Origin: an uncultured Oligoflexia bacterium
GTDB lineage: Bacteria; Bdellovibrionota; Bacteriovoracia; Bacteriovoracales; Bacteriovoracaceae
Direction: 5' to 3'
Length of the DNA stretch: 64,000 bases
Assembly: GCA_913058265.1 (NCBI GenBank)
Contig: CAJXPQ010000006.1
Span: 1-64,000, forward strand
The translations under genes were made by a program, and so were the position numbers. Shown one piece after another: positions 42,024 through 48,340 of this stretch. The notes under the pieces are model-generated. The model was not told the DNA's origin, did no database searches, and was given only the letters and a program-made list of their open reading frames with translations. Positions within the stretch are counted from its first letter, which is position 1. Each line of letters starts with the position of its first letter.

Positions 42024-42434
42024 ATGATTAAAATTGAAATTTTAAATTCAAATGACCTCTTAAGAACTGGTGAGTATGTTTTTTATAAAAACTACCTTAC
42101 GATTGGATCCCACCACACTTCAGACCTTTTCATTGATTCTGATGGACTGAATAAGTCACACTCAACCCTATTTTTCAAAGAAGATAAACTTTACGTTGGA
42201 AACATGGATAAAGAAATATATCTTCATGTGAATGGAAAAAAAACTAAAGGCCAGAAGCTATTAAAAAAAGACGATTTAATCAAACTTAAAACAGTCGAAA
42301 TTATGGTTATTGATTATTCAATAACACCAACAACCTCAATTCAAAGCTATATTGAAGAGACCCTAACTTCTTTAAAAAAAGAGAATCATCCAGTTCTGGA
42401 TTTCCTGTTACCAGAGGATACGATTGATGGATAA
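42024..42434 (+). CDS. FHA-domain protein
   Basis: LTIGSHHTSDLFIDSDGLNKSHSTLFFKEDKLYVGNM. Confidence 0.8.
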   Translation: MIKIEILNSNDLLRTGEYVFYKNYLTIGSHHTSDLFIDSDGLNKSHSTLFFKEDKLYVGNMDKEIYLHVNGKKTKGQKLLKKDDLIKLKTVEIMVIDYSITPTTSIQSYIEETLTSLKKENHPVLDFLLPEDTIDG

Positions 42435-43302
42435 TAACTTTAGTAATTTTTTAAAGATCAGTGATGGAGAACAGATCTTCTATACCACAAATTTTAAACC
42501 AACAGCTAATTTAGAAGATGTATTAGTTTTTAACTATGGTCTTGTTTGTTCAAATTTTCATTACTCAAAGCAGATAAAATATTTTGATGACCTGGGCTTT
42601 AAAATCCTTTTACACGACTATAGAGGACACTATCAATCTTCAGGGGGTCATGATCTATCTCAAATTACTTTCTCTCGTATCGCGAATGACTTAATAGAGT
42701 TAGTTGATCACTTACAGATTAAATCTCTTCACTTGATAGGTCACAGCATGGGAGTAAATGTATGCCTAGAATTCGCTAAATTATATCCAAAAATCACAAA
42801 GTCTATGATTCTTATATCTGGCACTATAATTCCAGTACATAACATAATGATGGATACTCACTTAACAGGACCTCTTAAACCTATCCTCTTAGGTTTAATG
42901 GAGAAGTTCCCAAAAGAGTTTGATCTATTTTGGAAATATGGCGGATGGAATCCTCTGGTAAAAAGAGCGATTCATGCGGGCGGATTTAATTTAGAACAAG
43001 TCAGTGATGAGTTCATACAAGTCTATTTAAATAAGCTGGGTCAGCTTGGGCCGCAACTTTTCTTCCATCTCGTAACTGAGATGCACGATCACGATATCTT
43101 GGCTTTTGTACACAATATTAAGACTAGGACTCTGCTTATTGGTGGAACAAAGGACAAAGTCATTCCCAATTTTTTACAAAAACTATGTCATGAAAAGCTT
43201 GAAAACTCGGAGTTATATTTAATACATGAAGGAAGTCATGTTCCCCAGGTGGATTTTCCAGGCTTTACTAACGAACGAATGACATTTTTTCTAAACCCTT
43301 AA
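42424..43302 (+). CDS. Alpha/beta hydrolase
   Basis: LIGHSMGVNVCLEFAKLYP nucleophile elbow; HEGSHVPQVDFP. Confidence 0.9.
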   Translation: MMDNNFSNFLKISDGEQIFYTTNFKPTANLEDVLVFNYGLVCSNFHYSKQIKYFDDLGFKILLHDYRGHYQSSGGHDLSQITFSRIANDLIELVDHLQIKSLHLIGHSMGVNVCLEFAKLYPKITKSMILISGTIIPVHNIMMDTHLTGPLKPILLGLMEKFPKEFDLFWKYGGWNPLVKRAIHAGGFNLEQVSDEFIQVYLNKLGQLGPQLFFHLVTEMHDHDILAFVHNIKTRTLLIGGTKDKVIPNFLQKLCHEKLENSELYLIHEGSHVPQVDFPGFTNERMTFFLNP

Positions 43303-44543
43303 TCTAGATTAAGTTCTTTATATTCAATTAAATTAGTAAAGAGTCTTTTTAAAGCTGAGTTTACTTGAGACTTTTTATATTCATGGTGAGAAGCTTCCCC
43401 TTTCGTATTTTCATAATGGCTCTTCTCGTCTGTAATTTGGACTTCAAATGGATAAAAGAACCTAACTTCTGTTGCAATTGAACTTGTATCTAGGTCTTTC
43501 AGTTTTTTAGTGATTTCATCATCTGGAGAATTCTTTTTTGCAAATATCCGTAATTTCCTAAACTCTTGATAAAATGGATTTCTATATTTAATTAGCTGTC
43601 TACATGTAAAATGAATTGCACTGTATTTATGTGAGGTATGTTCGTTATTTTGATATTGACCACTGAAAGAGGCCTCTTCTGTAAGCTTTTCTAGCTCAAG
43701 AGCAAAATCCTCTTCATTTAAATTTTCTTTAATACACTTTTTTAAAATATTTAAATAATTGACCTTAAATTCATCAAGCTCGAAAAGAGAGTTTTGAGAT
43801 CGAGATGGCTTAATATTATTTACGACAATCACATAGTTTTGATCTAGAAATTTTAAAACTCGTAAACAATCAATTTTAGATTTCGTTACAAACCGTATAC
43901 CGATTCGATCAAAAAGTTCTTCAGCAACATTTTCTTTTTTGTGTAAAAGCTTAATGATAATACTTTCACGTGACTTTTTTGACTTTGTTTCGAAGTCCAG
44001 AAGAGGGATTCTTACAGACTTATCCTCATTCTCAAGAAAGAGCTGATCATCTTCTCTGTGAATATATTTATAAAATCTATCAAATATCTGCGTTTGGATG
44101 GTTGTAAAATATCGATACCTGAGATCCTTATCAAGGTGCAGGATTGTATGCATCACTTTTAAAATGATACTGGCCCATAAAGAATCTTCAATATCAGTTT
44201 TAAACTCAGAGTTACCTGTTGCAATTAATAAGAGCTCTGAAACATCTGTAAGAGAAAAAAAGACGTTTGGAACCATAATATCTAGCCCATCCTCTGGATT
44301 TCCTTCTTTTAAAAAATATTTCTTTATAAATTGTAGGGCTTCTTGAAAATTACCAAACATTTCTGCATTTTGAATGGGATCAGATAAATCATATCCGTAG
44401 CCCAATAAAAAACGGTGAGCTTCTTCTTTCGTTTTAAAGTGTGTGAGATAGTTTTTTGCATCTAAAGAAGATGTTCCGCTGGCCATAATATCTATGGTTT
44501 CCCAGTTGAATTTATAACTATCAATAAAGTTTGGCCTGCGCAT
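43299..44543 (-). CDS. Divergent RelA/SpoT-like nucleotidyltransferase-domain protein
   Basis: SRESIIIKLLHKKENVAEELFDRIGIRFVTKSKIDCLRVL; KYSAIHFTC; PFEVQITDEKSHYENTKGEASHHEYKK, aligning by eye with RSH synthetase motifs. Confidence 0.65.
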   Translation of the reverse strand: MRRPNFIDSYKFNWETIDIMASGTSSLDAKNYLTHFKTKEEAHRFLLGYGYDLSDPIQNAEMFGNFQEALQFIKKYFLKEGNPEDGLDIMVPNVFFSLTDVSELLLIATGNSEFKTDIEDSLWASIILKVMHTILHLDKDLRYRYFTTIQTQIFDRFYKYIHREDDQLFLENEDKSVRIPLLDFETKSKKSRESIIIKLLHKKENVAEELFDRIGIRFVTKSKIDCLRVLKFLDQNYVIVVNNIKPSRSQNSLFELDEFKVNYLNILKKCIKENLNEEDFALELEKLTEEASFSGQYQNNEHTSHKYSAIHFTCRQLIKYRNPFYQEFRKLRIFAKKNSPDDEITKKLKDLDTSSIATEVRFFYPFEVQITDEKSHYENTKGEASHHEYKKSQVNSALKRLFTNLIEYKELNLD

Positions 44544-44586: not shown

Positions 44587-45081
44587 GTGAAAGATCAAAA
44601 TATAACTCTATTTGACCGACTCCAACTAATCTTCTTAAGTTTCTTTGGAACTGGTTATGCGCCTAAGGCACCTGGTACAGCTGGTAGTATTGCAACGATA
44701 CCTTTAATTCTCTTACTAGATTATTTAAGTCTTAGCTTCAGTGCTGTTATTGTGTTTACTCTTATTATTTTTATCCTTGCCTGCTTTAGCGCTCAATTTA
44801 TACAAGAGAAATTTAAAACTCACGACCCCGGTTGGATAGTCATTGATGAAGTCGTTGGTATGCTGATAACTTGGCTTTTCATTTTTCCAACCATCAACTG
44901 GCAAGGTCTACTCCTTGTCTTTATATTATTCAGAGTTTTTGATATCTTTAAGATTTTTCCCGCAAGTTGGGCAGATAAAAAGATGAAAAGTGGTGCTGGA
45001 ACTATTATTGATGATGTTATTTCTGCACTGTATGCAGGTATTGTCTTATTAATAATCAGAAAGTTCCTATACCCATTCTAG
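44587..45081 (+). CDS. pgpA: Phosphatidylglycerophosphatase A
   Basis: FFGTGYAPKAPGTAGSIATIP, DPGWIVIDEVVGMLI, FRVFDIFKIFPASWADKK. Non-ATG start. Confidence 0.93.
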   Translation: MKDQNITLFDRLQLIFLSFFGTGYAPKAPGTAGSIATIPLILLLDYLSLSFSAVIVFTLIIFILACFSAQFIQEKFKTHDPGWIVIDEVVGMLITWLFIFPTINWQGLLLVFILFRVFDIFKIFPASWADKKMKSGAGTIIDDVISALYAGIVLLIIRKFLYPF

Positions 45082-46888: not shown

Positions 46889-48340
46889 TTAGTTTTGATT
46901 TAATAGTATTTGATCAAGTTTTCTATTAACTTCATCAAGTTGGTCACGAAGATCTCTATTTTCATTTTCAAGGACTTCGATTCGAAGATCTTGCTCAGAG
47001 TCTTTCACTGACATACCAAATTGCATAATAGCTATAAGCTCTCTATTCTGTTCGATCTCTATTTTCTGCTCTTTAAATGCCTCAATTAAGATCGCCACAA
47101 AGTTAGCATAATGAACAGATTTGTAATCCGTTCCAGGTATAAAGCTAACAAGCTCTGGAAAGATAGCCTCAACCTCTTGAGCAATTAACCCGATTTGCTT
47201 TCTCTCTGAAAAGTTTCTCCCTGGGAATTCATCCTTTCGCATAAAGTAAGTAACACCACGCAAGTCTGAGAGTCTTTCAGATGCATTTAGAATTGTTGCA
47301 ACTTTCTTCTTAAATCTTCTATCTGAACTCAAGGCAGATCCATCACCGTAATACGTTCCAGTTGTAACAGTTGTTGTACCAATTAATGTACCAGATGTTG
47401 TCGTACCGACTAAAAGAGTAGTAGCAGCATCCCCATAAATTCTTAATCGATTTACGTTCGCTTCATCATTATAGATACCAATATCATCATTATCACCAAA
47501 AGTTATACCTGCATTAAACGGTAATGCTAATGCATGTGAAACATCAACAACCGTATCACCTGGCCAAAGTTGGTTTCCACCAGCCCCCTCAGCAGGACTC
47601 AAACTTAATGTAGCCGTTGGCGTAACTATCCCTGTAGTTAAGTCTCCAATAACAGTCCTTGCCGTACCAACACCAGAACCTGTAAAGGTAATTTCACCAG
47701 TGGCGTCATTTAAAACAAAATGTCCATCATCCTCTGCTCTTGAAGTCGTTGCACATGACTCAACCATAGTTGGTGTTGCCGAGTTGTGATTATCAACCTT
47801 ACAAAGCATAGGTATGATTAAATATTTTCTTCTCGTCAGATCCGTAACATCTGCAAGTTTTGAGTTTATTAGTCCTATACGTAAATTACAATTACCAGAT
47901 AATACACCTGCAATGTTTGAAGACGTTGGTGTATTACGGTTACCGTCGTTGTCATATGCAGATACGACAATATCCGTTACAACAAATTCGGGTGCTTCAT
48001 CAAAGCGCTGACCAACAGTTACCCACTCCGTAGGGGTCCCTGCACCAGGCTGTGTTGTCTCTATTGATGTAATTGAACTGTTGTCAGTAGAAATATCAAG
48101 AGCATTTGTACCACCTATAAATTCTGTACACTGAGCTCTATCGGTTAATATTCCCCTCAATCTTTTTTGAACATCTTGGAGAGCGGCATCACCCTGAATC
48201 TTGGCCATACCCTTGGTTGCATTGTCATTAATCTGCATGACACCCATTGCAATGATGATTGAGATTGCAGATGCTGCCATAACCTCAACAAGAGATGCAC
48301 CCAATTCATTCGATAGAATTTTGTGTTTTTTCATAACCAA
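46889..48340 (-). CDS. Type IV prepilin-like protein with C-terminal peptidase S74 / intramolecular chaperone domain
   Basis: N-terminal LSNELGASLVEVMAASAISIIIAMGVM (G|A with Glu at +5); C-terminal SSDRRFKKKVATILNASERLSDLRGVTYFMR...KQIGLIAQEVEAIFPELV. Confidence 0.85.
   Translation of the reverse strand: MVMKKHKILSNELGASLVEVMAASAISIIIAMGVMQINDNATKGMAKIQGDAALQDVQKRLRGILTDRAQCTEFIGGTNALDISTDNSSITSIETTQPGAGTPTEWVTVGQRFDEAPEFVVTDIVVSAYDNDGNRNTPTSSNIAGVLSGNCNLRIGLINSKLADVTDLTRRKYLIIPMLCKVDNHNSATPTMVESCATTSRAEDDGHFVLNDATGEITFTGSGVGTARTVIGDLTTGIVTPTATLSLSPAEGAGGNQLWPGDTVVDVSHALALPFNAGITFGDNDDIGIYNDEANVNRLRIYGDAATTLLVGTTTSGTLIGTTTVTTGTYYGDGSALSSDRRFKKKVATILNASERLSDLRGVTYFMRKDEFPGRNFSERKQIGLIAQEVEAIFPELVSFIPGTDYKSVHYANFVAILIEAFKEQKIEIEQNRELIAIMQFGMSVKDSEQDLRIEVLENENRDLRDQLDEVNRKLDQILLNQN

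Follow-up and report, generated by a model that had tools for sequence, protein, structure and literature searches.

Is the 414-residue protein encoded at positions 43299..44543 (minus strand) of the window, the whole 64,000-nucleotide stretch of DNA analysed here, a synthetase of the RSH superfamily, and, if so, what might serve as its acceptor? The initial annotation placed the open reading frame exactly, from its ATG start to and including the stop codon, and described the product as a highly divergent RelA/SpoT-type synthetase hidden in a hypothetical protein. The description holds in substance, but the family is already covered by NCBIfam. The protein matches TIGR04562 at 407 bits (cut-off 140) and TIGR04552 at 393 bits (cut-off 125), both over the full length. 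These two entries carry no function ('TIGR04552 family protein'), and the family is little studied; in the literature searched, a single paper names it, within a table of mutations. What is added here is the RSH relationship, the catalytic conservation, and the architecture of the N-terminal domain and inserts, from which we predict an RSH-superfamily 3'-pyrophosphokinase.

Fold and domain architecture

The Pfam RelA_SpoT profile (PF04607) matches residues 190-247 of the protein, a partial match, at 32 bits against a curated cut-off of 27, and matches 25 of 40 diverse homologues with E <= 0.01. The NCBIfam model TIGR00691 (spoT_relA) gives E = 1.7e-6, though far below its own model cut-off. 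PAS_10, KNOX2, and the other weak Pfam matches are all under cut-off and were rejected, and a single-sequence phmmer search of the 414-residue protein against the PDB gives no match. The unedited family profile yields short local matches only with Rel or SAS. When the two inserts described below are cut from the profile before comparison, hhalign aligns it end to end with RSH synthetase domains over 121 columns (91.7%, P = 7.8e-7). The insert-free profile scores 30.0 against Rel alone and 24.9 against SAS alone, and the best of 60 column shuffles scores 18.6 and 20.2, respectively. With the Pfam cut-off passed and the hhalign scores above those of the shuffles, the RSH motifs, which lie where the initial annotation read them, are not a product of chance.

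The reading also survives the fold part of the refuting check proposed along with it. An AlphaFold2 model of the 414-residue protein, built from 57 sequences with homologues at least 49% identical, has a pLDDT of 86.6 and contains the SYNTH fold. In a Foldseek search against the PDB, all 50 matches listed are RSH synthetases, with RelP and RelQ on top (probability 1.00, E 4e-4). The TM-scores are moderate, 0.42-0.54 by target for the SAS chains, because of the inserts. We regard membership in the RSH superfamily as nearly certain. The protein combines a SYNTH domain with the absence of HD hydrolase, TGS, and ACT domains, which is the criterion for a SAS enzyme, and no other Pfam domain exceeds its cut-off. 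The published classification has 12 SAS subgroups (Atkinson 2011); the protein does not match the subgroup descriptions in PMC3153485, a text that does not mention Bdellovibrio.

Residues 1-172 (44028..44543, minus strand) form an all-helical N-terminal domain with a conserved H132-x3-H136-x3-D140 motif and Q150/Q152. This domain has no Pfam relative, and its own model, weaker than that of the whole protein (pLDDT 78.5), has no fold match in the PDB. With both searches blank and no HD motif, it cannot be recognised as an HD hydrolase, in agreement with the initial annotation, and we rejected a degenerate HD hydrolase on the same grounds. H132, H136, and D140 (44124-44150) share one helix face, with conservation of at least 98% across 169 homologues, and may contact metal, substrate, or a domain interface.

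The additional N-terminal domain had been noticed before, together with a single long insert between the R and Y motifs; the inserts, however, number two, one on either side of the G-loop. Insert 1 (residues 251-300; 43644..43793, minus strand) contains two predicted helices between the invariant residues N251 and N300, and is about 50 residues long in most of the family (range 13-53). Insert 2 (residues 323-358; 43470..43577, minus strand) contributes two helices between the strands bearing Y307 and E367, so that this span is 60 residues in the window protein versus 15 in RSH. It is mostly missing in Bdellovibrio-type members.

Catalytic and acceptor-reading residues

Conservation was assessed in 169 full-length homologues, with identity down to about 26%. 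The ATP-site motif K187-x2-K190-x3-S194-x3-K198 (residues 187-198; 43950..43985, minus strand) reads K190-S-R-E-S194-I-I-I-K198-L in the window protein and has the K-x3-S-x3-K spacing of the SAS enzymes of the phylum. In particular, the spacing of K190, S194, K198, D212, and G215 equals that of K78, S82, K86, D100, and G103 in those enzymes (K-to-D 14). The Arg of the R-x-K that precedes the ATP-motif Lys in SAS and Rel is not found at the equivalent position; K187 (168/169) is located one residue earlier. The predicted Mg-binding motif D212-x2-G215-x-R217 (residues 212-217; 43893..43910, minus strand), in the context E-E-L-F-D212-R-I-G215-I-R217-F-V, is invariant in 169/169. The G-loop region follows N300 (residues 301-312; 43608..43643, minus strand) and carries Y307-S-A-I-H. 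Position 307 is Tyr in 162 homologues and Phe in seven. The His of this motif is not the family feature that it was taken for, as position 311 is Q in 107, H in 49, and K in 13 homologues; the Cys of the 'DC..L' helix is likewise variable across the family alignment. The catalytic Glu motif (residues 367-390; 43374..43445, minus strand) reads F-E367-V-Q369-I-T-D372...G382-E-A-S-H386-H-E-Y389-K390 and has the consensus G382-x-A-x-H386-x2-Y389-K390 in its second half. Its E367...K390 segment aligns without gaps with E331...K354 of Rel, with the same 23-residue spacing.

Twelve residues (K190, K198, D212, G215, R217, N251, N300, P365, E367, Q369, G382, and R400) are invariant in 169/169. S194 is kept in 166/169, and H386, Y389, and K390 in at least 98%. 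When 13 signature positions predicted from Rel/SAS alignments were tested in the homologues, 12 fell among the 30 columns of the SYNTH domain with conservation of 98% or more (hypergeometric P 1.1e-11). The roles of the catalytic residues are established for RelSeq and RelP, where we take the Asp and Glu to be D264 and E323 in RelSeq numbering; conservation and register were examined here. The Asp of DxxxxR and the Glu of ExQI, D212 and E367, which the initial annotation read as retained, are present in every homologue in the expected register, and, judging from that register, their placement in the active site presumably matches that of RSH enzymes.

The SYNTH fold, the catalytic motifs in register, and the invariant ATP, Mg, and Glu residues support the reading of the protein as an alarmone synthetase or a related pyrophosphokinase. 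Judging from sequence and model, it is likely a very divergent but catalytically competent member of the RSH synthetases, in which a SAS-like SYNTH domain is joined to a new N-terminal domain, and the conservation pattern makes catalytic activity as such highly probable.

The acceptor-reading residues behave differently from the frozen chemistry residues. In RSH enzymes, SxH of syn3 reads guanine, and IR of syn4 is likewise a motif of the guanine type (PMC12226406). Among the 169 homologues, syn3 is [A/S/F]-x-[Q/H/K] and EIQIR of syn4 is replaced by E-x-Q-x-x-D, with V, T, or M rather than R at position 371. The guanine-specific signature of (p)ppGpp synthetases is therefore absent, although the G-loop residue Y307 is kept. 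Since the chemistry residues are frozen and the acceptor-reading residues have moved, the substrate is not readable from the sequence, and a plain (p)ppGpp synthetase is just one option. The product is perhaps (p)ppGpp, to which we give somewhat less than even confidence; an acceptor other than that of (p)ppGpp synthesis is possible but rather doubtful.

The explanation that survives best beside the preferred one follows from the latter possibility. A housekeeping pyrophosphokinase of the same fold and chemistry could act on ATP/ADP, the 3' end of tRNA, or a different 3'-OH substrate, with the altered guanine pocket, the helical N-terminal domain, and the inserts forming a new acceptor site. 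The changed syn3 and the x-D of syn4 beside invariant ATP/Mg residues point in this direction, and for other RSH synthetases the acceptor is ATP or tRNA CCA (PMC12226406, PMC11559606). However, the signature of the adenosine 3'-pyrophosphokinases Apk1, Apk2, and EAS, GxN at syn3 and YH at syn4, is missing too, and altering the syn motifs did not swap the specificity in experiments (PMC12226406), indicating that these motifs predict the acceptor poorly. We consider this explanation tentative.

That the RSH fold has lost its catalysis and is retained to regulate or to sense nucleotides is improbable. Some ATP/GTP-site residues deviate from canonical RSH, as this explanation would have it, but across the 169 homologues, with identities as low as about 26%, the catalytic Asp, Glu, Gln, Lys, and Arg rank with the best-conserved positions of the domain. 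Also in favour of this explanation, the gene can be dispensable. In evolved Bdellovibrio sp. NC01, which has a family member, a 1-base deletion in that member rose above 75% in a single line out of six (PMC9888234). The rise of this frameshift suggests that loss of the gene is tolerable and may be favoured in coculture; the deletion possibly spread by hitchhiking.

Inheritance and locus

The genome search was centred on Bdellovibrionota. The family occurs, almost always as a single copy, in 225 of the 241 sampled genomes of this phylum with a completeness of 90% or more, and in 219 of 235 when contamination of no more than 5% is also required. The 16 genomes that lack it include several small ones (1.2-2.0 Mb), and 14 control genomes of well-known organisms have no member at all. 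In a profile scan of genome contigs, nearly all of the best 80 loci are from Bacteriovoracaceae/Halobacteriovoraceae or are of the Bdellovibrio type. In a gene tree built from 47 members, every taxonomic family falls to one side of a branch, and the labels change 14 times, the smallest number possible.

The gene is alone on its strand, with both neighbours in the opposite orientation. Divergent from it is pgpA (44587..45081, plus strand), followed by recA and recX; in 85 of 112 loci pgpA lies close by. Convergent with the gene, an alpha/beta hydrolase gene (42424..43302, plus strand) overlaps it by four bases at the stop codon, and is its neighbour in most Bacteriovoracaceae-type genomes. Phylum-wide presence, a tree that matches taxonomy, and a stable locus together identify a near-universal, vertically inherited, single-copy chromosomal core gene of the phylum.

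We found no homologue on plasmids or viral contigs and no PADLOC match, and with these searches blank we rejected a mobile or defence gene. The locus, where pgpA and the alpha/beta hydrolase are the neighbours, has no adjacent or co-transcribed antitoxin. A ToxSAS-type toxin, of the kind that the initial annotation offered as an alternative, or an abortive-infection effector is accordingly very improbable: several RSH synthetases such as FaRel2 and CapRel are toxins whose antitoxin is either a partner protein or fused to them (PMC11559606), and the N-terminal domain could act as an antitoxin in cis, but a single-copy core gene of high-quality genomes with a vertical tree, a conserved locus beside pgpA-recA, and oppositely transcribed neighbours does not fit, SAS distribution being normally sporadic (PMC3153485).

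Several further observations concern copies of the gene and its surroundings. One genome, with a contamination estimate of 2%, has two full-length copies that are 56% and 54% identical to the window protein, the only clear intact duplication noted. The 274-kb record MW495066.1 ('Microcystis phage MaAM05, complete genome') bears a TIGR04552-type member. It also carries the housekeeping genes rpsA, rplU-rpmA, secE-nusG-rplKA, trpS, glyS, and secDF, and looks like a bacterial contig filed as phage, possibly from kin of Bdellovibrionota. A phage origin was rejected, as this sole 'phage' match resembles a bacterial chromosome contig. Between recG and the alpha/beta hydrolase gene of the window, a small FHA-domain protein is encoded (42024-42434, plus strand); tblastn recovers its sequence in one of 112 related loci, indicating fast divergence or local insertion. 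Farther along, the protein at 46889-48340 (minus strand) has a prepilin-like N-terminus, GASLVEVMAASAISIIIAMGV, and a C-terminal Peptidase_S74 (endosialidase chaperone) domain, an unusual pairing of a pilin-type export signal with a fibre chaperone.

Proposed reaction and relation to known synthetases

The genome of the window also holds a separate, long, canonical bifunctional Rel, whose HD, SYNTH, TGS, and ACT regions were recognised by eye from its sequence. A few relatives have additional ordinary SAS-type RelA_SpoT proteins of 224-359 residues (six loci in six genomes); unlike the core TIGR04552 gene, these are patchy. In another genome, a 460-residue open frame (positions 852-2231 of its locus, minus strand) has an apparent export signal, a divergent RelA_SpoT region (31.7 bits), and the motifs GFRIVL, GYTSLNLNL, and AELQIRGE, and possibly encodes an exported alarmone synthetase.

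On present evidence, the TIGR04552-family protein of the window is most likely an active chromosomal 3'-pyrophosphokinase whose product is a purine alarmone, and its gene probably provides a second nucleotide-signal enzyme beside the normal one, which belongs to the makers of bacterial starvation signals. ATP would be bound by K190, S194, K198, and R217, and Mg held by D212 and E367. The beta-gamma pyrophosphate of ATP would then be transferred to the 3'-OH of a nucleotide acceptor stacked on Y307, with GDP/GTP, ADP/ATP, or another nucleotide as candidates. The helical domain at the N-terminus probably gates the activity, together with the two helical inserts flanking the acceptor site. The resulting soluble purine alarmone would act alongside the ordinary bifunctional Rel, and Rel, through its hydrolase domain, or another hydrolase would remove it; a guanine product could be degraded by Rel.

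In B. bacteriovorus HD100, dksA transcription drops on leaving attack phase, which the authors link to lifted ppGpp control (PMC2797640). An additional alarmone source would therefore have an obvious place to act in this phylum. A role in the control of attack-phase exit is conjecture; if active, the enzyme would give the attack/growth switch of Bdellovibrio-like bacteria another source of alarmone, possibly one with altered chemistry. If the acceptor is non-guanine, this would be a housekeeping, not toxic, use of such chemistry. The boldest version, which we consider unlikely, is a phylum-specific core second-messenger enzyme whose non-guanine acceptor and sensory N-terminal domain are both new, and which became fixed in the Bdellovibrionota ancestor and serves lifestyle switching beside Rel.

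Among known systems, ToxSAS enzymes (FaRel2, CapRel, and PhRel) and Apk/EAS resemble the window protein in having a stand-alone SYNTH-type domain, in several cases with added domains. The window gene differs in lacking toxin-antitoxin pairing and mobility, and its product in lacking a recognised export domain and the GxN/YH adenosine signature (PMC12226406). Long RSH Rel proteins of the RelSeq type share the gap-free E-x-Q-x12-G-x-A-x-H-x2-Y-K segment and the same Asp and Glu, but have the HD hydrolase, TGS, and ACT domains that the window protein is without. The SAS enzymes of the same phylum share the K-x3-S-x3-K...D-x2-G spacing. RelP/SAS2 and RelQ/SAS1, stand-alone SYNTH enzymes free of HD, TGS, and ACT, are the best structural matches. 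Their PDB chains are about 200 residues long, whereas the window protein, with its additional N-terminal domain and pair of inserts, runs to 414 residues. The window family differs from them further in its altered guanine-reading residues and its phylum-wide vertical inheritance. SAS enzymes are usually sporadic and spread horizontally (PMC3153485); here, instead of the usual patchy and mobile gene, a predator-rich phylum keeps a near-universal, vertically inherited, single-copy gene beside a full Rel.
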